From a virus, in the IMG/VR virus record IMGVR_UViG_3300032087_006453, positions 1-64,000 of that record: a stretch of 64,000 nucleotides of DNA; one strand, written 5' to 3'. Both the position numbers and the translations under genes were made by a program. The notes under the pieces are model-generated. The model made no database searches. It had not been told where the DNA came from and saw only the letters and a list, made by a program, of their open reading frames with translations. Shown here piece by piece: positions 3,740 through 35,273 of the stretch; the stretch's first letter is position 1, and each line of letters opens with the position of its first letter.

Positions 3740-3745
3740 TCAGCA

Positions 3746-3792: not shown

Positions 3793-3796
3793 ACTC

Positions 3797-4484: not shown

Positions 4485-4489
4485 CAGCA

Positions 4490-4534
4490 CCTCCTTACAA
4501 ACAGATATTACCACAGTTTCAGGGTTTACACTCA
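4490..4534 (-). promoter_or_regulatory. Recurrent phage promoter cassette, copy 3
   Basis: GTGTAA, about 15 bases ending TGTGG, TAATAT, then TTTGTAAGGAGG. The TGA inside TTGAGTG is close to the previous gene's stop, as in other copies. Confidence 0.6.
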
Positions 4535-4771: not shown

Positions 4772-4778
4772 ACTGCAT

Positions 4779-4826
4779 CCTCCTTACAATCAGATATTAC
4801 CACAGTTGCCTATTGACTTGCACTCA
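4779..4826 (-). promoter_or_regulatory. Recurrent phage promoter cassette, copy 4
   Basis: GTGCAA, about 18 bases ending TGTGG, TAATAT, then TGTAAGGAGG. Its GAGTG start overlaps the stop of the gene before. Confidence 0.65.
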
Positions 4827-5135: not shown

Positions 5136-5142
5136 GTTGTTT

Positions 5143-5190
5143 CCTCCTTACAGTCAGATAATACAACAAAGGAGAATTTTCTGCACTCAG
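5143..5190 (-). promoter_or_regulatory. Recurrent phage promoter cassette, copy 5
   Basis: GTGCAG, 17 bases, TATTAT, then TGTAAGGAGG. Located between the orphan leader peptide (5197-5232) and the 4824-5135 gene. Confidence 0.68.
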
Positions 5191-5196
5191 TTTTAG

Positions 5197-5232
5197 CTAA
5201 ATTTTATGTAGCTGCTTCTTCGTGAGTTTCAT
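5197..5232 (-). CDS. Orphan capsid-targeting-like leader peptide
   Basis: An ATG overlapping the previous stop (ATGA) opens MKLTKKQLHKI and then stops. The 11 residues match the first residues of the MKITRKQLRRIISEA leader found at 16716-17009 and 27728-28180. It is either the remnant of a leader-bearing gene replaced by the promoter cassette and downstream gene, or a tiny expressed peptide. No ribosome site of its own is obvious. Confidence 0.4.
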   Translation of the reverse strand: MKLTKKQLHKI

Positions 5233-5744
5233 GACAAAGCCTTGTATAGCCTTTCCGCATGTTCATCGGTCCCATACTTTTCGACAAAATCAGCGACGCT
5301 CATTTTTTCAACTTTCGGTGAGGTGTTACGCCCGGTGTACTGTTCAAGAAACATGATCTGCTTCTCTGGATCGTACTTCAGCTCTTTAGCACAACCCAGT
5401 ACAATTTCTAAAATTGAATAAATGACGTAATCAGGCTGGTTAATCAAAGGTTCAATGAAGTTAAAATCCAACCCGTTTGAAACCCTGACATACCCTTTTC
5501 GCATTGCGACTTCATCGGCGTAGAGTCCAGAGAAGCCGGTATCATACCAGCCTTCGTCTTTACTACGTTCTTCTGCCCACTGAAGGTGCGTTTGACGGGG
5601 AGCCAAAATATTAATTTTGCCATTTCGTTCAATCCACGCCAAGGAATGAGTATACGGGCTGCAAGTTGCGTGATCCAATTCCTTGGACACTTCGTTAAGT
5701 GCGGTTCTAACAATGCGTCTAAGCTGGTTGGCGGTTACTATCAT
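5229..5744 (-). CDS. Leader-tagged protein, unknown
   Basis: 171 residues from ATG 5744. Residues 1-22 (MIVTANQLRRIVRTALNEVSKE) fit the shared leader: amphipathic helix, Leu-Arg-Arg-Ile core, then a possible cut after LNE. The rest has no recognised motif but is well-formed alpha/beta. By analogy with T4 internal proteins it may be packaged in the capsid. An ATATTTATT element precedes the start. Confidence 0.6.
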   Translation of the reverse strand: MIVTANQLRRIVRTALNEVSKELDHATCSPYTHSLAWIERNGKINILAPRQTHLQWAEERSKDEGWYDTGFSGLYADEVAMRKGYVRVSNGLDFNFIEPLINQPDYVIYSILEIVLGCAKELKYDPEKQIMFLEQYTGRNTSPKVEKMSVADFVEKYGTDEHAERLYKALS

Positions 5745-5759
5745 GCCAATAAATATGTG

Positions 5760-5849
5760 TCAGTGATCTCTAAACGTGCCATAGACGTGGCCTACGTGAA
5801 AGCTGATGAAGCACAGCGCTGCCGTGATTACAATTCCTCCAATAGTCAT
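5760..5849 (-). CDS. 29-residue membrane peptide
   Basis: ATG 5849 follows a strong AAAGGAGGT by 7 bases. Residues 2-17 (TIGGIVITAALCFISF) form one membrane segment; the tail is short and His-rich. Fills the space between two genes exactly. Function unknown. Confidence 0.5.
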   Translation of the reverse strand: MTIGGIVITAALCFISFHVGHVYGTFRDH

Positions 5850-5862
5850 GTTCTTACCTCCT

Positions 5863-5991
5863 TTACCCTGAAATAACCTTGATTAGCAAAAATCCGGCTG
5901 CCAAGACAATCATGCCAGAAACAATGCTGATGTCTCTTACAACTCTAGCGACAGCAAGTGCCAAAACTTTATCCCTATTGCTTTTCTTCAT
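5863..5991 (-). CDS. 42-residue single-pass membrane protein
   Basis: ATG 5991 follows GGAGAGCGAAGA and lies inside the end of thyX (17-base overlap). A basic N-terminus (MKKSNRDK) is followed by a long hydrophobic helix ending IVLAAGFLLIKVISG. A longer in-frame start at 6063 is inside thyX and has no ribosome site. Role unknown. Confidence 0.5.
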   Translation of the reverse strand: MKKSNRDKVLALAVARVVRDISIVSGMIVLAAGFLLIKVISG

Positions 5992-6790
5992 TCTTCGCTC
6001 TCCTATAAGCCCCAACCGCAACAGGCCATAGTCCTTCCGCAATCTCCAGACAAGCCTCGGCAACCTTTTGAATCTCCCATTGCGCCCCTTCGTGCGTGCG
6101 AAGGTCGACGAATTTCAGGAGATTTGATAGGTCGACTGTGCCATAGTACTCGGTGTAAAGGTTCTGTGGCAGAACACCGCGAGCTTGTTCGCGGCAAACG
6201 CCTGCTTCGATGAGACTATCATAGAGCTTCAAGCTTTTCGCATGCCAGTCTCCGATAACCTTGCTCGCATCTCCTCGATGACCGGAAGGTCCATAAGGAA
6301 CCTTAACTACTGGATTCACCAACTCGCCGGCGTTACTTGCCTGACGGTTGCTTTTGTGTTGTGTCCTAAAAGCCTGTGGCTCGTAGAACCTCAGATTCAC
6401 ATCTGTATACCTGCGAGAAATTTCATTATAGGACCAGGTCCTATGGCGATGATGCTGGCTGCGGACAAACAAAGGAACAGTAAACCTAAATGTAGCCAGA
6501 TTATGTTCAAAAGTAGAGGTGTGTCGATGTTCGACCAGGTACTTAATGAGTCTTTTGTCTTTTTCATCTAACGCCTCCTTATGCTTCCCAAAACTGACAC
6601 GAGCACTGTTGACGATAGTAAGATCGCTGCCCATCCACTCCACCAAATCAACTCTGCCAATTCCGTCTCCATAGATCTCAATGCTCCTCATAGAATCGTT
6701 TAAAAAACGCTCTGCTTTGGGCACCGTTGCCCTAATGTTTGGGTCCACAAACCACTCCCTTTTCGTCCTGTATGCGTCTGGATCGCTCAC
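5975..6790 (-). CDS. thyX: FAD-dependent thymidylate synthase ThyX
   Basis: 271 residues. Converts dUMP to dTMP using methylene-tetrahydrofolate, FAD and NADPH. The ThyX signature is present near residue 118 as HRHRTWSYNEISRRY, with RHR for FAD binding and the Ser/Arg for dUMP; ARVSFGK near 65 and EHNLATFRF near 97 are also typical. It is the probable dTMP source, which makes the second, ThyA-fold enzyme at 52001-52879 available for a different job. It is followed by a cysteine-synthase-like gene. Confidence 0.95.
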   Translation of the reverse strand: MSDPDAYRTKREWFVDPNIRATVPKAERFLNDSMRSIEIYGDGIGRVDLVEWMGSDLTIVNSARVSFGKHKEALDEKDKRLIKYLVEHRHTSTFEHNLATFRFTVPLFVRSQHHRHRTWSYNEISRRYTDVNLRFYEPQAFRTQHKSNRQASNAGELVNPVVKVPYGPSGHRGDASKVIGDWHAKSLKLYDSLIEAGVCREQARGVLPQNLYTEYYGTVDLSNLLKFVDLRTHEGAQWEIQKVAEACLEIAEGLWPVAVGAYRRAKNEEKQ

Positions 6791-6798
6791 TTAAACCC

Positions 6799-7677
6799 TC
6801 AAATGCAACTAAGATAACGCTCACCACGATCGCAAAGCATGGTGAAAATAACTCCATCAAATTCATTCTCGCTCGCCCACTTTTCGCAGGCTAACACGTT
6901 TGCACCAGAACTAATGCCAACCAGCATGCCCTTTTGCTTGATGAGTTCCCTGGCTCTCTGCTTTGCAGACTCAGTCGGTATCACAACTATTTCATCAACC
7001 TCTTCGAGATCAACAAGAAACTTGCTTCCGTCACCGATACCTTGGATACCGTGTAGCCCGGGTTCTCCGCCGCTCATCACTGGAGATTCTGCAGGCTCGA
7101 CTGCAATGATCTTTACATCCGGATAGTTCTCACGAAGTTTTGCTGCAACTCCCATGATTGTTCCACCTGTTCCCGTTCCGGATACGAATGCAGCAGGCTT
7201 CGTGTTCATCGACCTGCAAGCTTGGACAATCTCCTCTCCGGTGGTGTGGTAGTGGCACTCGATGTTCAGCGGGTTATTGAACTGATTCGTGTTGTACCAT
7301 CCATTCTCTTCCGCAAGTCGATCCCTTAGTGCAATTGCACCGTCAAAATCACCGGCATCGACCTCGATGAGCTCTGCGCCGAGGGTCGTCATCATCTGTT
7401 TTCGCTCTTCAGACATGTTGCAAGGCATGACAATCTTCATGTCATAACCTCTCTCTGCAGCAAGAAGAGCAAATGCAATCCCCGTGTTTCCTGATGTTGC
7501 CTCAACAAGAGTGTCGCCGGCCTTAATTTGACCAGCGTTCTCTGCAGCGTCGAGGATGTACTTTGCCAGACGATCCTTCACACTTCCAGAGGGACTGTAC
7601 GTTTCAAACTTTCCATAAATGCCTTCTTCAACTTTGAGAAGAGGCGTATTCCCCACGTGATCAGATGGTCTAGACAT
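6799..7677 (-). CDS. Cysteine synthase-like PLP enzyme (CysK/CysM family)
   Basis: 292 residues with start at ATG 7677 after GGAGCTGGA. Fold-type II PLP enzyme with the Schiff-base lysine in PSGSVKDR, the substrate loop EATSGNTG, the phosphate loop GTGTGGT and GISSGAN near the end, as in O-acetylserine or O-phosphoserine sulfhydrylases and cystathionine beta-synthase cores. All key residues are intact, so it should be active. It could supply cysteine during infection, or feed an amino acid derivative to a pathway such as the PLP-containing unit at 29.7-32.7 kb. Phage copies are uncommon. Exact substrate cannot be told from sequence. Confidence 0.9.
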   Translation of the reverse strand: MSRPSDHVGNTPLLKVEEGIYGKFETYSPSGSVKDRLAKYILDAAENAGQIKAGDTLVEATSGNTGIAFALLAAERGYDMKIVMPCNMSEERKQMMTTLGAELIEVDAGDFDGAIALRDRLAEENGWYNTNQFNNPLNIECHYHTTGEEIVQACRSMNTKPAAFVSGTGTGGTIMGVAAKLRENYPDVKIIAVEPAESPVMSGGEPGLHGIQGIGDGSKFLVDLEEVDEIVVIPTESAKQRARELIKQKGMLVGISSGANVLACEKWASENEFDGVIFTMLCDRGERYLSCI

Positions 7678-7736
7678 TCCAGCTCCGCTATGTATTTCAT
7701 TGTACGGCACAGCGCAGCCGCTTTACAGAACCTAAA

Positions 7737-8402
7737 TTACACTATGTTCGGAGAGATGTCCAGCAAGTCCCTGATGCTGTTGAAGTGAGCTCGTGCAATG
7801 TCCCACTGACCCTCTTCGGTCATGAGGTACTTTGCTTCGTCGAGGTTGACAAAGAAGCCGTTCTCGCTAAGAAGCGCTGGCATCGCTGTTTTCCGAAGCA
7901 CGTAGAAAGACTGATTCTCCACAACCTTGCGCGGCCTTAGTTCCGTGTTGCCGTACTCGGCGAGGAGGTTGTTGGCAATGTCTCCTGACAAACCGCTTGC
8001 CCTGTAAACGAACACAGACGCGCCTCTAACGTCGATCGAAGGTCCTCTGATGTCCATGCCAATTGCATTTGCGTGAATGGACACAAAGATCGTGCTACCG
8101 CTCTTGTTTTCTCTGTTTGCGTTTGCAACCCTTTGCGAAAGGGAGACATCCGCCTGCTCAAGGCTCACAGTGTCGATAGAGTCCACAACGTACCTACCAG
8201 AAACGCAGTCGTATGTCTCAACACCTGCTCTGACGAGAAGAGACATGAACTTGCTAGCGGTGCCTCGGTTGAAGACTCCCTCGTAAATCGAGAACTCTTC
8301 AGGCTCCGTGAAGTGGTACTGTTTAGAACCAGGAGTCTGGTACTCGCCATCAATCATACCGCCGTGACCGTAGTCGACGATAACCCTATCTACTGTTGCC
8401 AT
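7737..8402 (-). CDS. N-acetylmuramoyl-L-alanine amidase (Amidase_3)
   Basis: 221 residues, start taken at ATG 8402. Zinc ligands of the Amidase_3 fold are visible: His in VDYGHGG (residue 12), Glu in IYEGVFNRG, His in SIHANA near 115 and catalytic Glu in ALLSENGFF near 185. It cleaves the amide between MurNAc and the stem peptide, so it is the likely endolysin or a virion lysin. No signal peptide, so release from the cytoplasm would need a holin or another route. The longer open frame to 8486 runs into tRNA-Leu and is rejected. Confidence 0.9.
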   Translation of the reverse strand: MATVDRVIVDYGHGGMIDGEYQTPGSKQYHFTEPEEFSIYEGVFNRGTASKFMSLLVRAGVETYDCVSGRYVVDSIDTVSLEQADVSLSQRVANANRENKSGSTIFVSIHANAIGMDIRGPSIDVRGASVFVYRASGLSGDIANNLLAEYGNTELRPRKVVENQSFYVLRKTAMPALLSENGFFVNLDEAKYLMTEEGQWDIARAHFNSIRDLLDISPNIV

Positions 8403-8447
8403 TAAACCCATCCAGACACGTTGCAGTGTCGATTCAGGGTATAAATA

Positions 8448-8529
<82 letters not shown>

Positions 8530-8533
8530 TAAA

Positions 8534-8606
<73 letters not shown>

Positions 8607-8612
8607 AAGGTA

Positions 8613-8686
8613 TCGGGATAGCTGGATTCGAACCAACGACCCTCTGCTCCCAAAGCAGATGCGCTACCAGACTGCGCTATATCCCG
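8613..8686 (-). tRNA. tRNA-Pro(TGG)
   Basis: Acceptor CGGGATA/TATCCCG, anticodon loop TTTGGGA giving TGG, discriminator A, CCA not encoded. The last codons of the VWA lipoprotein gene overlap its first 10 bases. Confidence 0.95.
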
Positions 8687-10062
8687 TCAACACATTTTAA
8701 GTACTGATAGGTGATTTGTACAACGTCTTCTCCCGTTGGTGCGTTCGACCTATCAAAGATTATCCTGTTACCGGCAGTTCCGTCATACTCCCAATCGCTT
8801 GGCGGTGATATCATTCCGTTGATCGTAACCTCAATGAATGCAGGCTCAACTGGCGTCCTGCTCATCTCAAACTCAAGAACAGGGTTGTAACTAGACTCCG
8901 CTATCATTGTCAGGCTGTCGCCCCAAGAGCCGCAAATGTCGATGGAAGAACCCGGGTTTAGCTTTGAAAGTTCCACGTATCGAGGTGCGTAAAATGCGGA
9001 ACAATGGCGCTTTTCACCCGTATCTGGAATTAGAGGATCGATCGGGTCGATGACTGAGAAGATGGCAATGTTTTCGTGTCCGTAAAGTCCTTGGAACCAA
9101 TCGGAGTATTCTATCACAGATCTAGAATCGTCTCCGGGCTCGTCTGTTACAAACACGAGCGTTAGGAAACTGTCTTCCCTCAGCACGCCGGTATCCCATG
9201 AGAAAGCACCGAATGGACCAGCGCCACCGCCAGTAGCTTGGAAAGCCATTTCCATTCCTGTCTCATAGGGATTTCCAGAAGTTCCTGCAGTCAGCTGAGC
9301 CTGCAATTCGCCAACTATGTCAGGCGTTGCGGGAGTAACGATCGGTCCTCGAAGAGCAGCGGAATCTGTCGTGATGACTCCTATCTGGAAGTCTACGTCA
9401 GATCCCTCGAGAGCTCTTGCAAACTTAGTTACGTTTGCAGAAAGGTCCGCTTGTTCCTCTGCCATAGAGCAAGAGTTGTCAATCACAAACAGAACGTCAG
9501 CCTTGTAGCTTTCTTCCCCAAGATGTGTATCGATCTGCTCGGGATAGTCGTTGGCATAGAAATCCTGGTCTATCCATATGTAGGGATCGTTGATTGCGTT
9601 CGATCTAATGAACAGCCTTGCTCCGTCGTCCACACCGTTGTTCTCGATGTGCTTGTACTCTATGACAATCTCTTCGCCGGGATCCAGGATCGCTTCGGTT
9701 GGATGCGTAACAATAACGTCTGGTGCAGCCAAACCATTCCATTCGATCGAATCGATCACTAACGGCTGCTGACCCACAGAACGAATTGTAACCGTGGCAT
9801 CTACTTCGCACTCCCGATCAGTTGGACCGGTCTCTAGTCGCTCTGGGAAGACCCTGATTTTTGGAAATCCACCAACAGGTGGGTCATCATAAGGCGAACT
9901 GGGCGGAGTGATCCAACCACTGTCGTAGCACAAGCACGATGAGTCTTCGGTATCCACTATGCTTTGATGTGTGTCGATTCCTGCAATCTTTTCTCTGACG
10001 TGGAAATCGTTTTCAGAAGAGCAGGAGAAAATGGCTAGGATACAAAATACTAAGAAACGCAC
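8677..10062 (-). CDS. VWA-domain lipoprotein, predicted surface adhesin
   Basis: 461 residues. A lipoprotein signal (MRFLVFCILAIFSC) ends in a lipobox Cys at residue 14. Residues about 70-165 look like a beta-sandwich of the choice-of-anchor type (FPERLETG, LDPGEEIVIEY). A von Willebrand type A domain starts near 190 with the MIDAS motif FVIDNSCSM (DxSxS), followed by TTDSA and VTDEPGDDSR. Such proteins bind metal and ligands at the surface of Gram-negative, often predatory, bacteria. In a phage it might alter the infected cell surface, exclude other phages or mediate cell contact. The stop codon lies inside tRNA-Pro; it sits between two tRNA groups, as many acquired genes do. Confidence 0.85.
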   Translation of the reverse strand: MRFLVFCILAIFSCSSENDFHVREKIAGIDTHQSIVDTEDSSCLCYDSGWITPPSSPYDDPPVGGFPKIRVFPERLETGPTDRECEVDATVTIRSVGQQPLVIDSIEWNGLAAPDVIVTHPTEAILDPGEEIVIEYKHIENNGVDDGARLFIRSNAINDPYIWIDQDFYANDYPEQIDTHLGEESYKADVLFVIDNSCSMAEEQADLSANVTKFARALEGSDVDFQIGVITTDSAALRGPIVTPATPDIVGELQAQLTAGTSGNPYETGMEMAFQATGGGAGPFGAFSWDTGVLREDSFLTLVFVTDEPGDDSRSVIEYSDWFQGLYGHENIAIFSVIDPIDPLIPDTGEKRHCSAFYAPRYVELSKLNPGSSIDICGSWGDSLTMIAESSYNPVLEFEMSRTPVEPAFIEVTINGMISPPSDWEYDGTAGNRIIFDRSNAPTGEDVVQITYQYLKCVDGI

Positions 10063-10100
10063 TGACCACCCCTTTGTATAAGTAGACAGTGGAGAAGGGA

Positions 10101-10174
10101 AGCCGCCTGTCGGATTCGAACCGACGACCTGCTGATTACAAATCAGCTGCTCTGGCCAACTGAGCTAAGGCGGC
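10101..10174 (-). tRNA. tRNA-Thr(TGT)
   Basis: Acceptor GCCGCCT/AGGCGGC, anticodon loop TTTGTAA giving TGT, T-loop TTCGAAT, discriminator T, CCA not encoded. Confidence 0.94.
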
Positions 10175-10314
10175 AAATGGGGAGACGACGTAGCAGGATG
10201 ATAATCGGACGAGAAGGCGAGTAAGTTGCTTTCACCAACTCTCATGACCGACCGTAGGGCAACTAATCTACAGTCTTGGTTTTTTGTTTTGATTTCCTGC
10301 TTCCGTCGTCGACT

Positions 10315-10336
10315 CCTTCGTCCCGTCGGACGAAGG
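10315..10336 (-). other. Strong hairpin between tRNA-Arg and tRNA-Thr
   Basis: A perfect 9-bp inverted repeat (CCTTCGTCC/GGACGAAGG) with a 4-base loop, 13 bases downstream of tRNA-Arg. No T-run follows on either strand at once, so a processing stem for the tRNA precursor or an RNA stability element is more likely than a terminator. The rest of 10175-10349 shows no gene. Confidence 0.5.
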
Positions 10337-10349
10337 CCCCAAAGGGAAA

Positions 10350-10422
10350 CGAGAGATACTGGATTCGAACCAGTGACCTACGGCTTAGAAGGCCGGTGCT
10401 CTATCCACTGAGCTAATCTCCC
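10350..10422 (-). tRNA. tRNA-Arg(TCT)
   Basis: Acceptor GGGAGAT/ATCTCTC, anticodon loop CTTCTAA giving TCT, T-loop TTCGAAT, discriminator G, CCA not encoded. Confidence 0.95.
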
Positions 10423-10551
10423 AAAGTGTTGGTTACTCGGGCGCGTGAGATCCCTTTCACCTTGAGAAGCACGAGTCTCCTCACTAATACCCCACTCAGC
10501 TGAGGGCGGAATGATTACAGCAACAGCCCCATTCCGCTGCGGGCACCTGGG

Positions 10552-10953: not shown

Positions 10954-12225
10954 TTAGGACACATAGATGGGAAGGAAATCATTTGCACGATTGTGCGAGA
11001 AATTCCTGTCCCTGTTCCATCGGTAGTACTTTCGGCAAACCGTTCGGAAGTACTCTACACTTCCCTCCTGGTCTCCGTGAAGAACGTAAAGCGCCTTGTA
11101 GCTGTTGGAATTTGAGAGATGCTTGATCTTGTCGACCATCCGATATGCAACATCTCGAATCTCTTCGGGAAGCGTGATGAGCATCTTGTCAAGCCTTTCG
11201 TTGACCATGCAATTCATCAGGTACTTGTAGCTGAGCTTGGATTTGACCATCTCACCGATGTAGTTCACGTACTTGAACTTGATTCGCTGAGCATCTTTGC
11301 CTGTGCCGATGCATGCAACCCAACCTTCGTTGTTGTGCACGTCTCGCCTGTTGATCTCATCGATGACTTCGCTAATGGTCATCATCTTGCGTTCCGGCAG
11401 AACAATGCTAGTGTTTCCTACCTCACGAACCTTCATGATGATTCTCTCAAGCACGTCCGAAGGAATCTCGTTGCCTCCTGTGTCGTATGCTGCGAGAAGA
11501 TATACCGACTCCTCGTTGCCATAGTCAACATGCACACGGCTGATGGGGTGGACAAGTTCCACAACAACGGTCATCAGGGAGTAGCCGAACAGCTTACATG
11601 CGTGAGCTGCTGCATCGAAGGACTTTCGATCTAGAAGCCCTAGAGCTGCATCGACATACGGAGTCTCCAGCCTTCCTCGAGTGGTTGCACACAGCTGATC
11701 GTTGTGAATGAAGTACTGGAGCATTGCCCCATCTTCTTTGCGCTGCATCATGACGGGATCTGGACCGGCAACCTTGTGAATGAACTCGGTCTCTGAGCTC
11801 GGCACCTCATCGCGATTGAAGAACTTTCGGAAGCTTCGGGATGCAAGCTTAACCCCAGAGACCTCACCTGGTGTCTCGTAGGAATACACTAGGCCACGCA
11901 TCAGTCTGAGTGAAGTCGTCCAGCCATCGCCGCCTGCAACATCGTGAAGTACGTTGTGAGCCTGAGGAGTGTAGTTGAACAAGACAAGCTTGCGACGTGC
12001 ATCAAGGTCGAAGCTGAAGAGATTGCCTGCCTTTACGCCCCACTTTGGATTGATTCCAAGAATGCTGTTGAGCTCATCGTTCCACTGCTTCTTGAGATGA
12101 CGCCAGCGATTCTTCTTGTCCTCTCGGGTCGTCATCTCGCTGGTAATCCTAGCAACAAGCTTTGGAAACTCGACGTCGAGAAAGATGGACTCTTCCATGG
12201 TTTGATGAGTTCTAAAATTTTTCAT
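10954..12225 (-). CDS. RNA ligase, T4 Rnl1-like
   Basis: 423 residues with start at ATG 12225 after GGAGGG. The nucleotidyltransferase motif I is MQRKEDGAML near residue 163, with the Lys that takes AMP; a motif IIIa-like segment RVHVDYGNEESVYLLAAY follows near 255 and lysines typical of motif V (RIKFKYVNY) near 325. This order fits ATP-dependent RNA ligases of the T4 Rnl1 family, which reseal tRNAs cut by host anticodon nucleases. No polynucleotide kinase partner is seen in this window. It has its own promoter at 12243-12271. The tRNA genes and CCA enzyme nearby support a tRNA repair role. Confidence 0.82.
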   Translation of the reverse strand: MKNFRTHQTMEESIFLDVEFPKLVARITSEMTTREDKKNRWRHLKKQWNDELNSILGINPKWGVKAGNLFSFDLDARRKLVLFNYTPQAHNVLHDVAGGDGWTTSLRLMRGLVYSYETPGEVSGVKLASRSFRKFFNRDEVPSSETEFIHKVAGPDPVMMQRKEDGAMLQYFIHNDQLCATTRGRLETPYVDAALGLLDRKSFDAAAHACKLFGYSLMTVVVELVHPISRVHVDYGNEESVYLLAAYDTGGNEIPSDVLERIIMKVREVGNTSIVLPERKMMTISEVIDEINRRDVHNNEGWVACIGTGKDAQRIKFKYVNYIGEMVKSKLSYKYLMNCMVNERLDKMLITLPEEIRDVAYRMVDKIKHLSNSNSYKALYVLHGDQEGSVEYFRTVCRKYYRWNRDRNFSHNRANDFLPIYVS

Positions 12226-12242
12226 GAATCCCTCCATGCATG

Positions 12243-12271
12243 ATTGTAATTGAGACAGCCTTAGTTTACAT
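12243..12271 (-). promoter_or_regulatory. Recurrent-type promoter for the RNA ligase gene
   Basis: ATGTAA, 17 bases, TACAAT on the minus strand, 18 bases before the ligase start. The TAA in the -35 is the stop codon of the preceding small gene, the same economy as in the cassette copies. Confidence 0.6.
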
Positions 12272-12373
12272 CGAAAGAGCAAGAATCAAAAAGAGGTATA
12301 CCAGCGGTGCCATCAGAATCGCAAACACGGTATCCTTGATCTGATCGCTCTTGGTGTAGTGTTCGTTGTTCAT
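12266..12373 (-). CDS. 35-residue membrane protein
   Basis: ATG 12373 lies 5 bases after GGAGGAAAG and overlaps the previous stop by 4 bases. A charged N-terminal half (NNEHYTKSDQIKD) is followed by one membrane helix (VFAILMAPLVYLFLILALSM). Good ribosome site and coupling make it credible. Function unknown. Confidence 0.6.
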   Translation of the reverse strand: MNNEHYTKSDQIKDTVFAILMAPLVYLFLILALSM

Positions 12374-19033: not shown

Positions 19034-19780
19034 TCAGTACACAAATTCAACATTGATCATCTCCGGTTTTCCCTTGGGGAACCTTGCTTTCCATGCATCG
19101 ATTTTTTCTTTGGCCTTTTGCATGACTTCTCTTCGCTCGCCCGTCGGATCGTTGTCTTCGTTGAAATCTTCAGGTCCGAAACGGTTTGCAAAGATCGCGG
19201 CGAGAACATCGGGAGATCTGTCGGTTCCCGACTTAGCAATATCAAAATCTTCTGGAACGAAATCGGGAATGCCGGCGTCAAGAATCTGGCGTGATATATC
19301 AGGACCGACAGCGCCTACCATTCCATGGCCAATGATGTCATGAACAACTTCCCAATCAACACCTTGAAAGTCTTCAGGGCCAGGCGGTTCAAGAACGACC
19401 ATGTACTTTGCATCCTTTGGCCAACCTTTTGATGCAACCCAATCCTGGAAGTCTTCGTCAAACTCGTCGTAGTCACGGTAGACATTCTCAAACTCATCGA
19501 TGTCTTCCACGGTTATGATGTACCACGTATCCTTCGTGTCTGTGAACCACTTCTTTGCTGCCTCAATGTAGTCAGGCTTTGCGCCGTATGCAATCGACGA
19601 GTAGGAAGTTCGAGGACCACCGCCATAAGATTCGATATCGGCGAGCGGAACCTCCATGATGATCTGCTTGACGTACTCTCTGAGCGTAGACTCAGTGACC
19701 ATACCTTCGAGGGAATCTAGCAAGCCGTCCGGAATGGGAACGTCTTGTGCCTGCAAATTTGTAAAGATGTTTTTCTTCAT
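19034..19780 (-). CDS. Leader-containing protein, unknown
   Basis: 248 residues from ATG 19780. The leader-like segment STLREYVKQIIMEVPLAD is at about residues 31-48 rather than at the very start, so a cut after IIME would remove about 43 residues. The body is acidic and Trp/Tyr-rich, with HDIIGHGMVG near 140 (a possible metal site) and PEDFDIAKSG/PEDFNED repeats. No enzyme family recognised. First gene after SodC in the series. Confidence 0.6.
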   Translation of the reverse strand: MKKNIFTNLQAQDVPIPDGLLDSLEGMVTESTLREYVKQIIMEVPLADIESYGGGPRTSYSSIAYGAKPDYIEAAKKWFTDTKDTWYIITVEDIDEFENVYRDYDEFDEDFQDWVASKGWPKDAKYMVVLEPPGPEDFQGVDWEVVHDIIGHGMVGAVGPDISRQILDAGIPDFVPEDFDIAKSGTDRSPDVLAAIFANRFGPEDFNEDNDPTGERREVMQKAKEKIDAWKARFPKGKPEMINVEFVY

Positions 19781-19781
19781 C

Positions 19782-20111
19782 TCATAGTCCTGTTGATGTT
19801 TGTAGATCCCATGGACCGTAGTGCTCGTACTCAAGGGCACGTCTCAACATTTCATCATAATCGTATTCATGAATGTTGTCAAGATATTCTATTCTTCCAA
19901 GCGCGTAATACACAGGCGCAGGCATTCTAAGGTCTCTTCCATTCGACTTGTCAATGACCGTGTCACCGTCTAGAACAAATGCGTGGCCATACGATATGCC
20001 CTCAATGTCACCCTGCCCCATGACCTCTGCGTGAATCAACTTCAGCCCAGAACCAGGTCCTTCGCTGAGCATGTATTGGAATGCAGCTTCGTAGCAATCG
20101 CCGAGTTTCAT
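19782..20111 (-). CDS. Small papain-like-fold candidate
   Basis: 109 residues. KLGDCYEAAF places a Cys at the start of a helix, YGHAFVLDGDTVIDKSNG supplies His then Asp on strands, the order seen in small cysteine peptidase or transglutaminase folds. Its ATG overlaps the preceding stop (TGATG). The assignment rests on the C-H-D pattern only. It might be a peptidase or toxin-like internal protein. Confidence 0.5.
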   Translation of the reverse strand: MKLGDCYEAAFQYMLSEGPGSGLKLIHAEVMGQGDIEGISYGHAFVLDGDTVIDKSNGRDLRMPAPVYYALGRIEYLDNIHEYDYDEMLRRALEYEHYGPWDLQTSTGL

Positions 20112-20722
20112 CAGTCCTCCAACGTCACTAGCCTGTTCAAGCTAGCAAGCTTATAAGTTGCGTATTGTGACTTTGGCCCTGTCTTCACATACCTTTTGCT
20201 CAGGGGTGATTCGGTCCACGGAGTTTTCGATGGTAGATCCTCGCCAAAGTCGTAGACCGCAGTCTCCTGACCGCAATTGTCATCAGGCTCAGCGGTAAGC
20301 GAATTCGACGGGCTATCCATCTGAATTGCTTTCACATCTTTTCTTTTTCTCAGGTAGTATGACCAAACTTTCCTTGCATCTGGTGATACGCTGTACCTGT
20401 CTGCGATCAATCCTCCACCGTACTCGGTCGCATACTCCATCGCAACATCGTACAGTAGCGGACCCCAGCCTCTCGTGGCTTTGGCCGATGTTACTTCGAA
20501 CGCACCGCCGCATGGCAAGTCAGGCTTTGAAATTGCAATGCGTCCTTCCATGTCGTCAATATGGTCAAAGAACCTTTGTCCCTTTTCGTTTGAGTAGAAG
20601 ATTTCTACGTCATCGGGACCATCTGCGACAATAGTGACGTAGACATCAGCCTCTGGAAGGTCTCGTGGTTGCTTTGCTGCTTCGAACAGAAGCTCTCTCA
20701 CATATTCACGTAGAAGTTTCAT
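20111..20722 (-). CDS. Leader-tagged GNAT-like paralogue 1
   Basis: 203 residues. Leader MKLLREYVRELLFEAAKQP, cut predicted after LLFE. The body has beta strands (VYVTIVADG), CGGAFEVTSA, then RGWGPLLYDVAMEYAT, which resembles the acetyl-CoA loop (R-G-x-G) and helix of GNAT acetyltransferases, then ADRYSVSPDARKVWSYY and an SPLSKRY motif near the end. Four relatives lie in the next 5 kb. If GNAT, it would acetylate a host target; the catalytic site cannot be fixed by eye. Confidence 0.7.
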   Translation of the reverse strand: MKLLREYVRELLFEAAKQPRDLPEADVYVTIVADGPDDVEIFYSNEKGQRFFDHIDDMEGRIAISKPDLPCGGAFEVTSAKATRGWGPLLYDVAMEYATEYGGGLIADRYSVSPDARKVWSYYLRKRKDVKAIQMDSPSNSLTAEPDDNCGQETAVYDFGEDLPSKTPWTESPLSKRYVKTGPKSQYATYKLASLNRLVTLED

Positions 20723-21252
20723 CAGTAGTACACTGCCCCCGTTATGGTGACGTTAGGGTACTTCTCCGCCATCTTGTCTTTGAGATGCCCGATCTCCTCT
20801 CTCATCATTCTGCCAAACTGAACGTATCCTCCGTCTGGATCAACGTGCCGAGAAAAGAATTCGTCTATGAGTTTGCTAGCAACGCCCTTGCCACGAGAAT
20901 CGCTCCTTGTCTTTATGTAGTCGATGTACCATATCTGCTTTCCGGCGGTGGTCTTACCGTCAGCATGATAGTCTAGAAACCCGATGATGCAAACATTGGA
21001 GACACCAGGGATGAACTCACCTTTCCTAGGCTTCTTAAGCCTTTGGCCTCGCTTACCGTATCTTATCATCTTTTGGTAATCAACGAAATATGCATCATGG
21101 TGCTTGGGAGGTTCGGTGACTGAAGAGTCGCAGTAGGCCAAGCGCTTTACGTTGCCTCTGTATGCACGTGCATAAGGCAGAGGAGAGTCTAGTTCATGAA
21201 ACGAAACATCCTCTGTGATAAGTTCTCTTACGTATTCTCGAAGTAGATTCAT
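20722..21252 (-). CDS. Leader-tagged GNAT acetyltransferase
   Basis: 176 residues from ATG 21252. Leader MNLLREYVRELITEDVSF. The motif TRSDSRGKGVASKLIDEFF near 130 is a textbook GNAT motif A (R-x-x-G-x-A), preceded by IWYIDYIK on the beta-4 strand. It is a different GNAT subfamily from the neighbouring paralogues. Overlaps the previous stop by 4 bases. Likely packaged and active on host proteins or small molecules; substrate unknown. Confidence 0.75.
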   Translation of the reverse strand: MNLLREYVRELITEDVSFHELDSPLPYARAYRGNVKRLAYCDSSVTEPPKHHDAYFVDYQKMIRYGKRGQRLKKPRKGEFIPGVSNVCIIGFLDYHADGKTTAGKQIWYIDYIKTRSDSRGKGVASKLIDEFFSRHVDPDGGYVQFGRMMREEIGHLKDKMAEKYPNVTITGAVYY

Positions 21253-21923
21253 CCCACTCTCCGTTTCATATCGCCGACAAGCTTGCCAGCCTTCTTCAGG
21301 GCTCTGAGAGTTGTCGATTCGTTTCCTCGAGTCTTCGACCACATCTTGCTAAGCGGTGATCTCATCCATTTTTGACCCGGAAGTTGTTTTGTGAGGTCGG
21401 TGTCAGGGACCAGGTAGCCCTGATCGGACGACAATGAAGCCCGGGCAGATTGCTTTATTGATACGCCCTGATCGCAATTGTCTCGGTCAGTTGGAGTTAA
21501 CGTGTTCTTCAGATCGTCCAGCTGAGTGCTGACAACATCGGGGCGTTTATTCATGTAGTGTGTCCACACCTTTGCAGCGGAGTACGATACTTCCTCTCGG
21601 TCTGCGATGAGACCTGTGCCGTCCCTTGTTGCAAACTCCATCGCAAGATCGTAGAGCATAGGTCCCCAACCTGGCGCCGCACTAGACCATGCAACCATCC
21701 ATGCACCTTCGCACGGACCGTCTTCGTCGTCATCAACTATTTGAATCGTTCCGTAAATTTTGTCAACACCGGCCCTGAATGGCTTTCCTTGAGCATCGGT
21801 ATAGGAAATGTTCACGAGACCATCTTCAACTTCGAACTTGACGAACACGTCATCAGGTAGGTCGGCTGGGCCTTTTGCTGCTTCTGACAGAAGCTGTCTC
21901 ACATATTCACGTAGCAGTTTCAT
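21249..21923 (-). CDS. Leader-tagged GNAT-like paralogue 2
   Basis: 224 residues from ATG 21923; the longer frame to 21980 lies in the previous gene. Leader MKLLREYVRQLLSEAAKGP. Shares CEGAWMVAWSSA, PGWGPMLYDLAMEFAT, ADREEVSYSAAKVW and MRSPLSKMW with paralogue 1. About 20 residues longer, with an insertion before the SPLSK motif. Confidence 0.7.
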   Translation of the reverse strand: MKLLREYVRQLLSEAAKGPADLPDDVFVKFEVEDGLVNISYTDAQGKPFRAGVDKIYGTIQIVDDDEDGPCEGAWMVAWSSAAPGWGPMLYDLAMEFATRDGTGLIADREEVSYSAAKVWTHYMNKRPDVVSTQLDDLKNTLTPTDRDNCDQGVSIKQSARASLSSDQGYLVPDTDLTKQLPGQKWMRSPLSKMWSKTRGNESTTLRALKKAGKLVGDMKRRVG

Positions 21924-22498
21924 TCTATCAGCTTCCCCATTGACCGAAGCTTCTGGATCGTGTCTAGCTTCTTTGTCCACCTCTTGCTTAGTGGAGACTC
22001 ATGCCATTCGATGTCGGCCAGCTCTTCGCTTTTGTATGCCGAGGTCTGGCCGCAGTTGTCGTCGCGGGTAGGCGTGAGTGTGTTGTCCAGGTCGTCCATC
22101 TGAATTCCTGTTACGTCAGCCCTTTTCTCTGCGTAGTAATCCCAAACGTCTCTTGCACGCAGTGAGACACTGTTTCTTCCCGAAGCAAGACCGCCACCGA
22201 GCTGCGTCGCAAACTCCATCGCGACATCATACAGCAGTGGACCCCAGCCCTTAGCGGCTCCGGAGTCCAAGACAATGAATGCGCCACCGCAGGGTTCATC
22301 AGCTTCCTGTATTTCGATCAAGCCTCTAACCGGGTTTTGCTTTCCTTCGATGTAGTACCCCTCTTCGTCGGCGTAATAAATCTCGTATGTGCCCGCGTCT
22401 GTCAGATCAATTCTGACAAACACACCGTCAGGTAGATCTTCCGGACCTTTTGCTGCTTCCGACAGAAGCTGTCTCACATACTCTCGTAGAAGTTTCAT
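21920..22498 (-). CDS. Leader-tagged GNAT-like paralogue 3
   Basis: 192 residues. The leader is identical to paralogue 2 over MKLLREYVRQLLSEAAKG. Contains CGGAFIVLDSG, KGWGPLLYDVAMEFAT, SGRNSVSLRARDVWDYY and ESPLSKRW. Closest neighbour and probably a recent tandem duplicate of paralogue 2; start and stop overlap by 4 bases. Confidence 0.7.
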   Translation of the reverse strand: MKLLREYVRQLLSEAAKGPEDLPDGVFVRIDLTDAGTYEIYYADEEGYYIEGKQNPVRGLIEIQEADEPCGGAFIVLDSGAAKGWGPLLYDVAMEFATQLGGGLASGRNSVSLRARDVWDYYAEKRADVTGIQMDDLDNTLTPTRDDNCGQTSAYKSEELADIEWHESPLSKRWTKKLDTIQKLRSMGKLIE

Positions 22499-23799
22499 AG
22501 CTCTATCAGTCTCCCGGCATCCTTTAGTGCATTGATTGTTGCAGGCCGCTTCTTGAAGGTCTTGCTCGAAGAGGAATCATACCACGTCCGAGGGGTTTTG
22601 TCATCCGCCGAAACATCCTGATCACAGTCATCGTAATTACGATCAGGCGTTAGCTGCGGCCCGGGTATTCCGCTGTCAGGAAGTTTATCGAGTTGGCGCT
22701 TTGTCACATCTGGCCGATTGTCATTGTAGTAATCCCACACCCGCCTTGCATCTCTTGACACTGAAGATCTATCTGACATGAGACCTGAACCATCCATCGT
22801 CGCAACTTCCATTGCAACATCATAGAGAAGCGGTCCCCAACCGGGTGGCTGTGCACTGGCATACATAACCTCCCAGGATCCCTCACAGCCGTTCTTGCTC
22901 TTAAACATGATTATGTGCCCAGCGACGCTAGAGTCGTCGGCGTACTGCTCATAGCCAAATTCGTCTGAGTAAAATATCTTTATGAATTTGTCTCTTGCTA
23001 TGGCGATGTAGAGATCTTTTGACTCAAGGTCTTCGACATCTTTTGCTGCTTCGGTTAGAAGCTTTCTTACGTATTTACGAATGTGAGTTTCATTCTTTGT
23101 CTTGGTCTTCTTCTTCAGTTTTTCGAGATGGCTAGACCAGATCTTGTTCGCTGCTCTGAGATTCTTCTTTTTCTCTGGGTCCTTTGTTCTCTCGATTGCA
23201 ACCTTCCCTCTTTGAACCATGACTAGAGACGCCTGAACCTTATGGGCGTGTGTTCTATTGGCCTTGTTAACTGTTGCAACACCCTTTCGAGCTGTGGCAG
23301 CATCCTTGAACCCAAGACCCTTGATCGTTCCCTTTGGGTCTTCGTCAGTGTAGAGGTCGGAATGCTTGGAACTTTTGCGGCGCTGGCCTTTCTTCCTTGG
23401 CTTCCTGGTTGCTTCGCTAACTCGCGGAGACCTTCTCATGCCGCCAAACTCAGGATCATCAACGAATCCGTTGCGAGCATACCAACTCTCGAGACCTTCC
23501 GAGTCGATCGTCGCCTGGGCAAACGGTGTTGGGTCGAGCGACATGACGACGTCATTTTCGTCTGCTAAGCTGACAAGCCTTCCCAACACTTGAGAGGCAA
23601 ACCCCTTGCCCTCACATTCACCCGCTGGTCGCGTCTGGATTGAACTGATGTGGATTGTATCATCGAATATCGAAATGTCCGTAAGCACTAAGCAGTGCTC
23701 TCCGTTTGATTTACCCATGTAGAAGTATCGTTCCCGAGGATCCATGGGATTCTGGGTTGACATCTTCTCATATTGTTCGATGTACCTTTCGAGACTCAT
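22495..23799 (-). CDS. Polyprotein-like: GNAT + basic domain + GNAT-like paralogue 4
   Basis: 434 residues from ATG 23799. Residues 1-125: a GNAT domain with ECEGKGFASQVLGRLV (R/Q-x-x-G-x-A region). Residues 130-235: a very basic Lys/Arg/His part (TRKPRKKGQRRKSSKHSDLY, then DPKGTIKGLGF and HAHKVQASLVM), a conserved type of phage basic domain. Residues 237-434: an internal copy of the leader, THIRKYVRKLLTEAAKD, followed by the same GNAT-like body as paralogues 1-3. Two possible prohead-protease sites (after VSE at 129 and LLTE at 250) would release three pieces. A leader is missing at the N-terminus. Confidence 0.72.
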   Translation of the reverse strand: MSLERYIEQYEKMSTQNPMDPRERYFYMGKSNGEHCLVLTDISIFDDTIHISSIQTRPAGECEGKGFASQVLGRLVSLADENDVVMSLDPTPFAQATIDSEGLESWYARNGFVDDPEFGGMRRSPRVSEATRKPRKKGQRRKSSKHSDLYTDEDPKGTIKGLGFKDAATARKGVATVNKANRTHAHKVQASLVMVQRGKVAIERTKDPEKKKNLRAANKIWSSHLEKLKKKTKTKNETHIRKYVRKLLTEAAKDVEDLESKDLYIAIARDKFIKIFYSDEFGYEQYADDSSVAGHIIMFKSKNGCEGSWEVMYASAQPPGWGPLLYDVAMEVATMDGSGLMSDRSSVSRDARRVWDYYNDNRPDVTKRQLDKLPDSGIPGPQLTPDRNYDDCDQDVSADDKTPRTWYDSSSSKTFKKRPATINALKDAGRLIEL

Positions 23800-24362
23800 T
23801 CCCCTGCAGCTCCCGCTGACTTCTCCTGCCACTCTGCTGACTGTTCATCCTCATCAATCGGGCCACCCGCAGCGTACGTGTCACAAGACCTTGCGCTGTG
23901 GCACTTGAAGTGATGCATCCAGCAATAGCCAAACCCAAGAAAGAAGTCATCGCCCTCGGGAAGATCTGGAAAGGATTCGCGTGGCTCCTTCAAAAGCTGA
24001 GCATTGACAATGTCAATCGTCGACATGTCCTCGGGATCGACTTGCTCATCAGATATCGGCATGCATTTCTGCATTCGCTTCGAAACATCGAAGGCAACAC
24101 AGTTGCCGCACCTCATTCCCCTTGCCTCTTCTGGCGTCGCTCCTTCCCACTTTTCAGCCATGCTCTCCCAGTATCCGTCGCTCGGCTGCAATGGGTTCAT
24201 TGGACCGTAGGCGTGATTCTTTCTGGTGAGGTTTCTATTCTTGGTGTTTACCTTAACGTCCTGCGTTGCAACGGGGCACTCGAGGTCTTCGACCTGCTCG
24301 TTTATGATTGACAGCGCTCGGTTAATTGTTTCCTTGAGATATTCTAGTCTTTTATGTTTCAT
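23796..24362 (-). CDS. Cys-rich, possible metal or Fe-S protein with leader-like start
   Basis: 188 residues. The N-terminal helix (RLEYLKETINRALSIINEQ) could be a leader with a cut after IINE. The C-terminal half holds CGNCVAF, then a Cys near 95, and GYCWMHHFKCHSARSCDTY, a pattern close to high-potential iron-sulfur or small zinc proteins. Acidic Ala/Gly tail. Coupled by ATGA to both neighbours. Confidence 0.6.
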   Translation of the reverse strand: MKHKRLEYLKETINRALSIINEQVEDLECPVATQDVKVNTKNRNLTRKNHAYGPMNPLQPSDGYWESMAEKWEGATPEEARGMRCGNCVAFDVSKRMQKCMPISDEQVDPEDMSTIDIVNAQLLKEPRESFPDLPEGDDFFLGFGYCWMHHFKCHSARSCDTYAAGGPIDEDEQSAEWQEKSAGAAGE

Positions 24363-25165
24363 CTTTCTACCACGCTAATGATTTGAATTGGTGTTGCAAT
24401 GTACTCATTCCACAGTGAGGTTCTAACGTTACCGTCACAGGTGTCTAGTTCGTAGCAAATGTTATTGACATCTCTTCCGGGATACTCTAGTCTAAGTAGA
24501 TTGCAGGCTCGCCTTCCGTTATCGACTGCTAACGATTTTACATCGCTTCTGAATCCTGCTCTGACGTTGCCCAAGAGTTTGACGATGAGATATGATTCCG
24601 GATCGAAGTACTCACGTTCGGCAACTGTGAACGTTGAAATGTCAAACTCCCTACCTTCATCTATCGCACGCTCGATGTTCTCAAGTCCGGCCGGAGACGT
24701 GTAGTGCATCAGCTCTCTGACATTATTCAGAGATCCGTACATCTGAATTGTGTATGCATCGTCGAGAAGAACGAAGGGTTCCAGATCCCCTCTGCTGTAA
24801 AAGAAACCGAAGCGAAGAGTGTTGATGTCTGGGAAGAATCTTGAGTAGTCTTCCTGAAAGCTCCAGAACCTGTGATTAACAAAGTCCTCAACAAAGTCCA
24901 GCACGTTCTTTCTCGTCAGTAACTCATATCGAGGAACCTCGACGTCTAGCTGGTACGAGAAGTATCGCCTAACCAGATTCTCAACTTCTTCGCCGGCGAT
25001 CTCTCCACCTCGAGTATCCATACCAAGTTCTTGCAGTTCAAGCATCTGGTTTACAAAGTCTTCCCACTCGCTCAGCAGAAAGAATGAAGACTCAGGCTTA
25101 ATGTAGCCTCTAACTTCGAACTGTTCGTGAAGAACTCCCTGTATGTATTCGCGCAGTAGTTTCAT
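24359..25165 (-). CDS. Leader-tagged ADP-ribosyltransferase-like protein
   Basis: 268 residues. Leader MKLLREYIQGVLHEQFEV. The C-terminal part has the order expected for an ADP-ribosyltransferase fold: LMHYTSPAGLENI (H/R-containing first motif), DISTFT near 170 (S-T-S-like), and WNEYIATPIQIISVV near the end, where the Glu would be the catalytic residue. The usual first Glu of ExE is replaced by Trp, so either this is a divergent H-Y-E-type enzyme or the call is wrong. In T4 the packaged Alt protein is also an ADP-ribosyltransferase carrying such a leader, which makes the match attractive. Confidence 0.5.
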   Translation of the reverse strand: MKLLREYIQGVLHEQFEVRGYIKPESSFFLLSEWEDFVNQMLELQELGMDTRGGEIAGEEVENLVRRYFSYQLDVEVPRYELLTRKNVLDFVEDFVNHRFWSFQEDYSRFFPDINTLRFGFFYSRGDLEPFVLLDDAYTIQMYGSLNNVRELMHYTSPAGLENIERAIDEGREFDISTFTVAEREYFDPESYLIVKLLGNVRAGFRSDVKSLAVDNGRRACNLLRLEYPGRDVNNICYELDTCDGNVRTSLWNEYIATPIQIISVVER

Positions 25166-25758
25166 TTTTCTACTAACCTTCCGGCAGAACGAAGCCGATC
25201 TATCGTTGTTGGTTCTTTGGTGTATCTTCTGCTAGATGAAGAATCGAACCACTTGTCACCGGTCTTATCTCTCACAGACGATGCCTGCTTGCAATCATCG
25301 TCAGCTGTATCAGGAGTTAGCTGCGGACCATCAATTGGTTCTCCAACAAGCTTGTCGAGCTGGTGTGATTGAACATCGGGCCTGATATTCATGTAGTAGT
25401 CCCAAACTCTGCGAGCGTCTTGAGATACGCCGACCCTATCTGATGTGAGACCGCCGCCGTTCATCGTCGCATATTCGATTGCAACGTCGTAGAGAAGCGG
25501 TCCCCAACCTTTTCTGGCCTTTGCAAAATCCACTTGCCATGCATCGTCGCAATTGCCAGTCTTCTCAGTTGGTTTTGTGATGAAGACCCCTGTGCCGAAG
25601 TCGTCTGAACGGTTTCTTCCCGTGCTGTCGCTATAGTACACGGAGACGTCGTCAATGTCACTAGATATCGTAACATAGGCGTCATTAGCAACCAGGTCGT
25701 CAACGTCCTTTGCTGCCTCTGATAGCAATTGTCTCACGTACTCGCGCAGTAAATTCAT
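25162..25758 (-). CDS. Leader-tagged GNAT-like paralogue 5
   Basis: 198 residues. Leader MNLLREYVRQLLSEAAKDVDD. CDDAWQVDFAKA, KGWGPLLYDVAIEYAT, SDRVGVSQDARRVWDYY and a DSSSSRRY tail align with the C-terminal domain of the 22495-23799 protein more than with the others (shared DSSSS instead of SPLSK). Confidence 0.7.
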   Translation of the reverse strand: MNLLREYVRQLLSEAAKDVDDLVANDAYVTISSDIDDVSVYYSDSTGRNRSDDFGTGVFITKPTEKTGNCDDAWQVDFAKARKGWGPLLYDVAIEYATMNGGGLTSDRVGVSQDARRVWDYYMNIRPDVQSHQLDKLVGEPIDGPQLTPDTADDDCKQASSVRDKTGDKWFDSSSSRRYTKEPTTIDRLRSAGRLVEK

Positions 25759-33905: not shown

Positions 33906-35273
33906 CTAGGGCATCAAGCCCAAGCCTCTGAGGAATCTTAGAACGTTCTCTTTGCTTCTATCTTCGTAACCGCCACTCTCCGAGTCTAGAAACATCTTCT
34001 CGGCAGTTGCTTTCTGATACCCTTCTTCAGGCTGGCTTCCTGACAGGCTTCGGCGCTTGCGTCGAGCTTCTCCAATAAGGGACCTGTATGCGTCCTCTTC
34101 AGCGGCAGCCATGGCTTTGCCAATAGCCGGCCCCTTCAGACCTTGACCCATAAGTTCCTTCGGATTTGCTGCCGGAGGTGAAGATGCAAACTTCAAAAAT
34201 CCCGATGCAATATTCTCAGGAACTCCCCCATGCCTTGCAAATTCTGAGACTGCCTCAGACGGAGAGCCGATTCTCTTGAACTCCTTCTTTAGCTTTACTG
34301 CAGTGGAAGGTGTGATCTCAGATAGGGACATCAGCATATTCGCGACATCAATTGTCTTACGGTCGTACCTCATCTTGTCAAGAGCTTTCGTGATCTTCTT
34401 TTGATTGTCGTCAACAATCATGAAAGCAAGTTGGACAGGCACGCTGTTTGACGAAACCGCCAGAGAAGGATCGGCATTCAACCCCGCGAGTATCTGAGGA
34501 AGAAGATCTGTTCTCTCGACAAGTTCCATGTAGTACTCTGGACGAACCGCCGACTTGATTCCCTTCGCGAACTCGTCAGTAATTCTTTCAGCAGACATTG
34601 CGGGGTCAGACCAAAGGTCGTTGTCATCCAAGATTGCCTGAAGGGTTTCTTTGTCGAGGGCAGAATCCATCCTTGCTGCGAAGCGAAGTGCCCTAAGGAT
34701 TCTAAGCTTGTCTTCATCAAATCTACGGGCAGGATCTCCTACTGCACGAATTTTCTTCGAGCGCAAATCATCAATGCCCCCGACGTAATCAACAATCTCC
34801 CCTGCATCGATGTCGTAGAACAACGCGTTGACAGTTAGGTCTCGACGTGCTACATCTTGATCGATTGTTGTGAACTCAACGCTGTCAGGCCTTCGACCCT
34901 TTCCGATGTCCTTTCGGAATGTTGCAATCTCGTACTCACTACCTTCAGGAGTCCATGCACGAACAACTCCGAACATCTTTCCTGTGACGTCAAGCTTCAG
35001 GCTTTTGTCCTGAGAAAGAATGTCCATGACTCTTTCAGGCGATGCACCCGTTGTTAGGTCATAGTCTTTCGGCTCCTTGTCCATCAAGACATCGCGGACG
35101 GCACCACCGACAACGTAAAGCTCTTCGCCAGAAGCCTTCATCATCTCATGTATTGCGAGCAAATCCTCTGGCAGGTTCATTCGAAAGGAAACCCGCTGTG
35201 GCTTTGCAGCCTCAGCAAGGATGCTACGAACAAACAAGCGTAGCTCGTTAATCGTCTTCTTGTTCCTCATCAT
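33906..35273 (-). CDS. cca: CCA-adding enzyme / poly(A)-polymerase family with virion leader
   Basis: 455 residues. Class II tRNA nucleotidyltransferase: LYVVGGAVRDVLMDKEPKDYDL near 51 (GG-x-V-R-D and D-x-D metal site), ARRDLTVNALFYD near 140 and RRFDEDKLRILRALRFA near 180. It adds or repairs the CCA end of tRNAs. The N-terminus, INELRLFVRSILAEAAKPQR, is the shared leader with a cut after ILAE, which bacterial CCA enzymes do not have; this suggests the enzyme is packaged. About 60 extra residues at the C-terminus. Six of the phage tRNAs lack an encoded CCA and need it. Confidence 0.92.
   Translation of the reverse strand: MMRNKKTINELRLFVRSILAEAAKPQRVSFRMNLPEDLLAIHEMMKASGEELYVVGGAVRDVLMDKEPKDYDLTTGASPERVMDILSQDKSLKLDVTGKMFGVVRAWTPEGSEYEIATFRKDIGKGRRPDSVEFTTIDQDVARRDLTVNALFYDIDAGEIVDYVGGIDDLRSKKIRAVGDPARRFDEDKLRILRALRFAARMDSALDKETLQAILDDNDLWSDPAMSAERITDEFAKGIKSAVRPEYYMELVERTDLLPQILAGLNADPSLAVSSNSVPVQLAFMIVDDNQKKITKALDKMRYDRKTIDVANMLMSLSEITPSTAVKLKKEFKRIGSPSEAVSEFARHGGVPENIASGFLKFASSPPAANPKELMGQGLKGPAIGKAMAAAEEDAYRSLIGEARRKRRSLSGSQPEEGYQKATAEKMFLDSESGGYEDRSKENVLRFLRGLGLMP

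Follow-up and report, generated by a model that had tools for sequence, protein, structure and literature searches.

A probable T4-type capsid-targeting leader on the CCA-adding enzyme of a phage

The CCA-adding enzyme encoded by a phage contig begins with a short leader that recurs on unrelated proteins of the same contig. The leader is probably a capsid-targeting propeptide of the kind known from phage T4, attached to a class II CCA-adding enzyme that is ordinary in other respects, and the enzyme is thus probably packaged in the head. Packaging is the best explanation because the leader behaves as a module, matches the dialect of leader that the phage uses elsewhere, and occurs, in relatives, in the context of head genes. 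No report of a packaged CCA-adding enzyme was found in the open-access literature. The features discussed below lie in the window, by which we mean the whole stretch of 64,000 nucleotides that was analysed (Table 1); its parent contig is a virus record of 70,003 bases and represents a fragment.

Table 1. Features of the window. A slash marks the end of a leader or a predicted cut.
Feature	Coordinates	Strand	Basis
CCA-adding enzyme gene, 455 aa	33906..35273	(-)	ORF, profile, alignment and structure search
Leader, residues 1-21, MMRNKKTINELRLFVRSILAE; lone helix 3-21; predicted prohead-protease site after Glu21 (LAE/A)	35211..35273	(-)	
Enzyme core, residues 26-402; GGAVRD, KDYD, RRD and EDKLR motifs	34068..35198	(-)	
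C-terminal tail, residues 403-455; 417-440 with pLDDT < 50 (partly disordered); preceded by IGE402/A	33909..34067	(-)	
Leader-bearing protein of the paralogue family, MKLLREYVRELLFE/AAK	20111..20722	(-)	
Leader-bearing GNAT-like protein, MNLLREYVRELITE/D from internal ATG at 21252	20722..21342	(-)	
Leader-bearing paralogue, MKLLREYVRQLLSE/AAK from internal ATG at 21923	21249..21980	(-)	
Leader-bearing paralogue, MKLLREYVRQLLSE/AAK	21920..22498	(-)	
Fusion: N-terminal domain, internal leader THIRKYVRKLLTE/AAK, paralogue domain	22495..23832	(-)	
Leader-bearing unrelated protein, MKLLREYIQGVLHE/Q	24359..25165	(-)	
Leader-bearing paralogue, MNLLREYVRQLLSE/AAK	25162..25758	(-)	
Leader-bearing unrelated protein, STLREYVKQIIME/V	19034..19840	(-)	
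Leader-bearing unrelated protein, NQLRRIVRTALNE/VSK	5229..5744	(-)	
Region with nine tRNA genes, six without encoded CCA (Gln, Leu-tag, Asn, Pro, Thr, Arg)	124..10423	(-)	ARAGORN
T4 Rnl1-like RNA ligase; possible tRNA-repair partner; no clear leader	10954..12282	(-)	

The initial annotation had assigned a tRNA nucleotidyltransferase to this gene, and the assignment holds: sequence and model alike identify the ORF as a complete class II CCA-adding enzyme, with CCA specificity as a prediction. Residues 52-176 form a PolyA_pol head domain (PF01743, E = 1e-34), the top PHROG is tRNA nucleotidyltransferase (E = 5e-54), and the AlphaFold (AF2) model, with a mean pLDDT of 89, finds CCA-adding enzymes as its best matches in a Foldseek search of the PDB (E = 1e-19). 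Residues G56, G57, D70, D72, R143, R144, D145, D188 and R191 do not vary among 34 aligned phage enzymes. Family profile, alignment, fold and invariant catalytic residues together indicate that the enzyme is ordinary and intact. It shares the fold and the GG/DxD, RRD and EDxxR motifs of class II CCA-adding enzymes (6qy6, 1miv and human TRNT1, 4x4w), and differs from them by the extra 21-residue leader and a C-tail of about 50 residues; alignments to solved CCA-adding enzymes start at residues 24-43 in most cases. The N-terminus reads MMRNKKTINELRLFVRSILAEAAKPQ (also given as MMRNKKTINELRLFVRSILAEAAK), and a purine-rich GGAAGAG stands immediately 5' of the ATGATG start of the gene. The C-tail, preceded by a candidate IGE402/A site, resembles the start of another protein in G017, a polyprotein (L186 11025-12617) in which the tail-like start precedes a zinc-protease-like stretch (HEMVHD) and a MKITKNQLRRIIKEA leader within the chain. 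A second tag was considered for the C-tail and rejected, as it occurs in just one other protein of the sets searched.

The leader of the enzyme is matched, far above chance, by N-termini of proteins from four or more unrelated families of the contig. The tag is found on other ORFs of the window as MKLLREYVRELLFEAAK, MKLLREYVRQLLSEAAK (twice), MNLLREYVRQLLSEAAK, MNLLREYVRELITED, MKLLREYIQGVLHEQ and STLREYVKQIIMEV, and the contig encodes other proteins that start with the pattern M[KN]LLREYVRxLLxEAAK. The shared tag reported initially is therefore real, although the stretch then quoted, INELRLFVRSILAEAAK, corresponds to residues 8-24 and not to the very first residues. Ungapped BLOSUM62 scores of the CCA leader against N-termini of its own contig reach 47, 43, 43, 43 and 41, against a mean of 28.1 and a maximum of 38 for 300 shuffled leaders. 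Scores of at least 35 are attained by 5 of 103 own N-termini, by none of 70 internal segments, and by 1 of 1025 N-termini of six other phages. Four of the five high-scoring N-termini belong to paralogues of one family; the GNAT-like protein (20722-21342) and the proteins at 24359-25165, 19034-19840 and 5229-5744 show, once the leader is set aside, no similarity to the paralogue family or to each other.

The stretch 20111-25758 holds five paralogues, 34-52% identical, with the leader at the start in four and inside the chain in one; they have no Pfam or PHROG match among those scanned. In the exceptional member (22495-23832) the internal copy of the leader, THIRKYVRKLLTEAAK, lies between two domains. 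A second type of leader, MKITKRQLRRII[KRS]E, was found on further small proteins. Elsewhere in the window, a pterin-4a-carbinolamine dehydratase domain (PF01329) follows a leader-like start, MNLKARMLREVFDLSE, at 44156-44575; a UvdE-type UV endonuclease (PF03851) is encoded at 28717-29658, and a 532-aa protein that is GroEL-like by eye at 38143-39741.

Relatives of the enzyme point to a leader that is a module and not part of the enzyme fold, as judged from sequences and models. We collected 80 viral relatives. Most of the non-redundant phage relatives carry some leader, and others are fusions or leaderless. The most frequent dialect is MKxxIxxILRExLxxE; a T4-like F-type dialect reads MQLKTFTEFQMVNEA, and the LREYVR-like dialect is seen in the window and in its close orthologue L199 (MNILYAYIREAMTLE). 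The initial annotation named as a refuting condition that close homologues have the leader as a normal folded part of the enzyme. This condition fails: there are homologues without a leader, and their sequences begin just where the leader of the other enzymes stops (for example, METRVKF against LIME/NRVKF). In the AF2 model residues 3-21 form a lone helix (pLDDT 74-83) and the core starts at residue 26, and in one phage relative 270 aa separate the leader from the enzyme. Leader states switch at least 14 times on a tree of 58 enzymes, under an automatic and rough classification in which at least one assignment (L213) is wrong: L213 was rejected as a leaderless case, its ORF running upstream into a leader (VKEFIKNKIRSLIME) with a probable non-ATG start.

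The leader also tends to follow the phage that carries it. When the CCA leader was compared with N-termini of unrelated neighbours at the same locus in related phages, 38 of 763 matched, as did 1 of 484 internal segments used as control (p ~1e-7), and the best own N-terminus exceeds the best internal control at 28 of the 35 loci. Most of this signal is contributed by the K and Y dialects, and most F-type loci, which have the T4-like leader, gave no own-locus match in this ungapped test. In phages of the LREYVR and MKxLIKKILRE dialects the CCA enzyme bears the phage's own dialect; the most striking pair is found in L009, where the enzyme starts MKEFIRNRIREGLITE and its upstream neighbour MKEFIRNRIRESLIEE. 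Some leader-using phages retain a leaderless CCA enzyme. The Glu that precedes the enzyme in several K-type relatives was not counted as independent support for a cleavage site, since leaderless enzymes often start with Met-Glu there and the residue may be an old Met-Glu start. In G010 (83396-86015) a GIY-YIG-like ORF (83856-84530) divides the CCA gene into two separate ORFs; the insertion is probably a mobile intron.

Neither gp21 nor gp23 was detected in the 70-kb contig, which is a fragment, so the prohead protease is deduced from a relative. The closest relative, G011, two genes of which specify proteins 87-96% identical to those of the contig, has a gp21-type prohead protease (E = 7e-27). 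Its gene order is T4-like: a terminase-like gene, a portal-sized gene, gp21, small proteins of the MAKISKTALKGLIKECLVEILQE and MKKMSVTRLRKFILEEAAK types, and scaffold-sized and capsid-like (gp23-like) genes, where all roles except that of gp21 are assigned from order and N-terminus. The leader-bearing genes MKKMSVTRLRKFILEEAAK and MAKISKTALKGLIKECLVEILQE thus sit between protease and scaffold, and the MKKMSVTRLRKFILEEAAK protein resembles the CCA leader in its LRxFxxxEAAK pattern. In the more distant relatives G001, G006 and G010, the tagged CCA gene divergently adjoins gp21, with gp23 nearby. A gp21-type match is present in 13 of 14 CCA-bearing records of at least 200 kb, two of the matches falling below the curated cut-off, which is consistent with packaging and does not discriminate. 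The presence of T4-type protease and leader genes in the head cassette of G011, the position of the CCA gene beside gp21, and the hydrophobic-x-Glu end of the leader make packaging likely. G011 also encodes, at 50598-54659, a run of eight small proteins that all have MKITKRQLRRIIKE-type leaders and differ afterwards. At 97933-98121 its CCA gene has been deleted between the same neighbours, leaving a remnant of the C-terminal tail only. This loss, together with the leaderless enzymes of some leader-using phages, indicates that packaging is not essential.

In T4, propeptides (CTS) of 10-20 residues target proteins to the prohead core and are cut off by gp21 after Glu, and they can package almost any protein, foreign ones included (PMC7697877, PMC5694885, PMC3012670). 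T4 IPII and IPIII start with MKTYQEFIAE/A, and gp24 with MAKINELLRE/S. The leaders described here resemble those of T4 IPI-III and Alt in being short, N-terminal and common to unrelated proteins, in ending with hydrophobic-x-Glu (LAE21/A in the window enzyme, as read from its sequence), and in the accompanying gp21-type protease, known here from relatives. T4 Alt is cut at ITE-6 and again near its C-terminus at LTE-619 (PMC5694885), and the candidate IGE/A site before the C-tail of the window enzyme may parallel this second cut. The dialects differ from MKTYQEFIAEA, and the likeness to T4 CTS is one of pattern rather than of demonstrated sequence similarity, being closest in the F-type relatives (MQLKTFTEFQMVNEA). 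The cargo differs as well: a CCA-adding enzyme is not among the T4 internal proteins, and its cleavage is predicted. The phiKZ-like propeptides of SPN3US gp53 and gp54 (MANFVKSKLARESVE), carried by processed ejection proteins, likewise have a short basic-amphipathic start ending in x-R-E/S; they differ in that the remaining propeptide exceeds 100 residues and the protease motif is A-x-E. A short-leader tblastn against annotated phages gave only a weak archaeal-virus match, annotated as a capsid assembly protein (E = 7), and thus tied no isolate of known virion proteome to the leader. One virion-proteome paper names a tRNA nucleotidyltransferase gene.

Several relatives encode the enzyme within polyproteins. 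In L199 (9637-11514) the leader and CCA enzyme are followed by RALIRSILNE/ELE and a second domain with CDMDGVLVDF, HAD-like by eye; the junction is closely similar to the window enzyme's own leader (RLFVRSILAE/AAK). L250 (8579-11563) and L260 (6095-9079) encode a 995-aa polyprotein of cytidylyltransferase-like and HAD-like domains and a CCA enzyme, with L/I-x-E/A at both junctions; the boundaries in L250 read FINE/A and LLRE/A. Such junctions, and likewise the internal leader between the two domains of window ORF 22495-23832, would fit a protease separating the cargoes, with the caveat that L/I-x-E is a common triplet and the cases are few.

We infer the following course of events. As the prohead assembles, the leader helix would attach to its core and bring the enzyme inside, a gp21-type prohead protease would cut the leader after Glu21 (LAE/A), the mature enzyme would be ejected with the DNA, and from the earliest minutes it would restore 3' CCA ends on tRNAs of the host or the phage. 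Immediate tRNA repair on entry is plausible. Jumbo phages have been described as carrying RNA-repair sets in which a CCA enzyme restores tRNA 3' ends, beside RNA ligases and cyclic phosphodiesterases (PMC7824862); a capsid-targeting leader is absent from the text of that survey. At 13 loci of the related phages a leader-bearing P-loop kinase is followed by a CPD-type domain with both HxT motifs visible. These fusions (AAA_33 and tRNA_lig_CPD-like), in L210 (14227-15153) and similarly in L008, L012, L205, L209, L212, L215, L220, L221, L222, L224, L227 and L229, lie within ~10 kb of the CCA gene. In G001/L005 the CCA enzyme itself carries a C-terminal domain resembling the cyclic phosphodiesterase of tRNA ligase (PF08302, E = 7e-4, below the cut-off). 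The leader-bearing kinase-CPD enzymes and the CCA-CPD fusions match the kinase and CPD of the fungal tRNA ligase Trl1 (PF13671/PF08302), that is, its end-healing domains; they differ from Trl1 in having no ligase domain in the same chain, and their CPD matches fall below the Pfam cut-off. We offer tentatively, as possible but leaning slightly to the improbable side, the wider reading that many large T4-like phages package an RNA-repair kit of CCA and kinase-CPD enzymes with their own head-targeting leaders, sometimes as polyproteins cut by the protease in the head, which would heal tRNAs from the moment of injection.

Packaging might instead have little to do with tRNA repair on entry. The enzyme could ride along, for example as part of processed polyproteins, or could mature the six CCA-less phage tRNAs later, and we regard this as rather unlikely. 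The leader-bearing proteins of these phages are very diverse, the closest relative has lost the CCA gene, and 6 of 9 phage tRNAs lack an encoded CCA; the number six given initially is confirmed, whereas the ten tRNA genes counted then are nine by ARAGORN. Against this, late maturation requires no packaging tag, and the same leader on kinase-CPD enzymes of relatives and the CPD-like domain fused to a CCA enzyme suggest RNA repair. The initial claim that the phage needs the enzyme later draws on the six CCA-less tRNAs, but is weaker than it was stated, because hosts as a rule encode a CCA enzyme themselves and the gene has been lost from this locus in G011. Less probable still is a leader serving as an assembly or addressing tag for some destination outside the head, for instance a cytosolic complex, the membrane or a replication compartment. 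Short amphipathic helices of like shape do serve elsewhere, for example as microcompartment encapsulation peptides, though the ORFs examined included no evident gene for a shell protein. Leader-bearing genes, moreover, lie within the gp21-gp22 cassette, and the hydrophobic-x-Glu ending of the leaders is that of T4 propeptides. That the first 21 residues merely form a helix at the N-terminus, or reflect a wrongly called start, as an internal Met32 and the moderate confidence of the AF2 helix might allow, is very improbable and already largely refuted by the similarity to unrelated proteins far above shuffles, by the leaderless homologues, and by alignments to cellular enzymes that start at residue 24 or later.

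Phage T4 injects proteins that were synthesised in the preceding host, including inhibitors of restriction enzymes. If the CCA-adding enzyme is packaged in the T4 manner, tRNA-cutting defences would be countered before the phage makes any protein, at the time when they are most dangerous. The leader would furthermore serve as a sequence-based criterion for predicting, among the numerous uncharacterised proteins of large phages, those that are injected.
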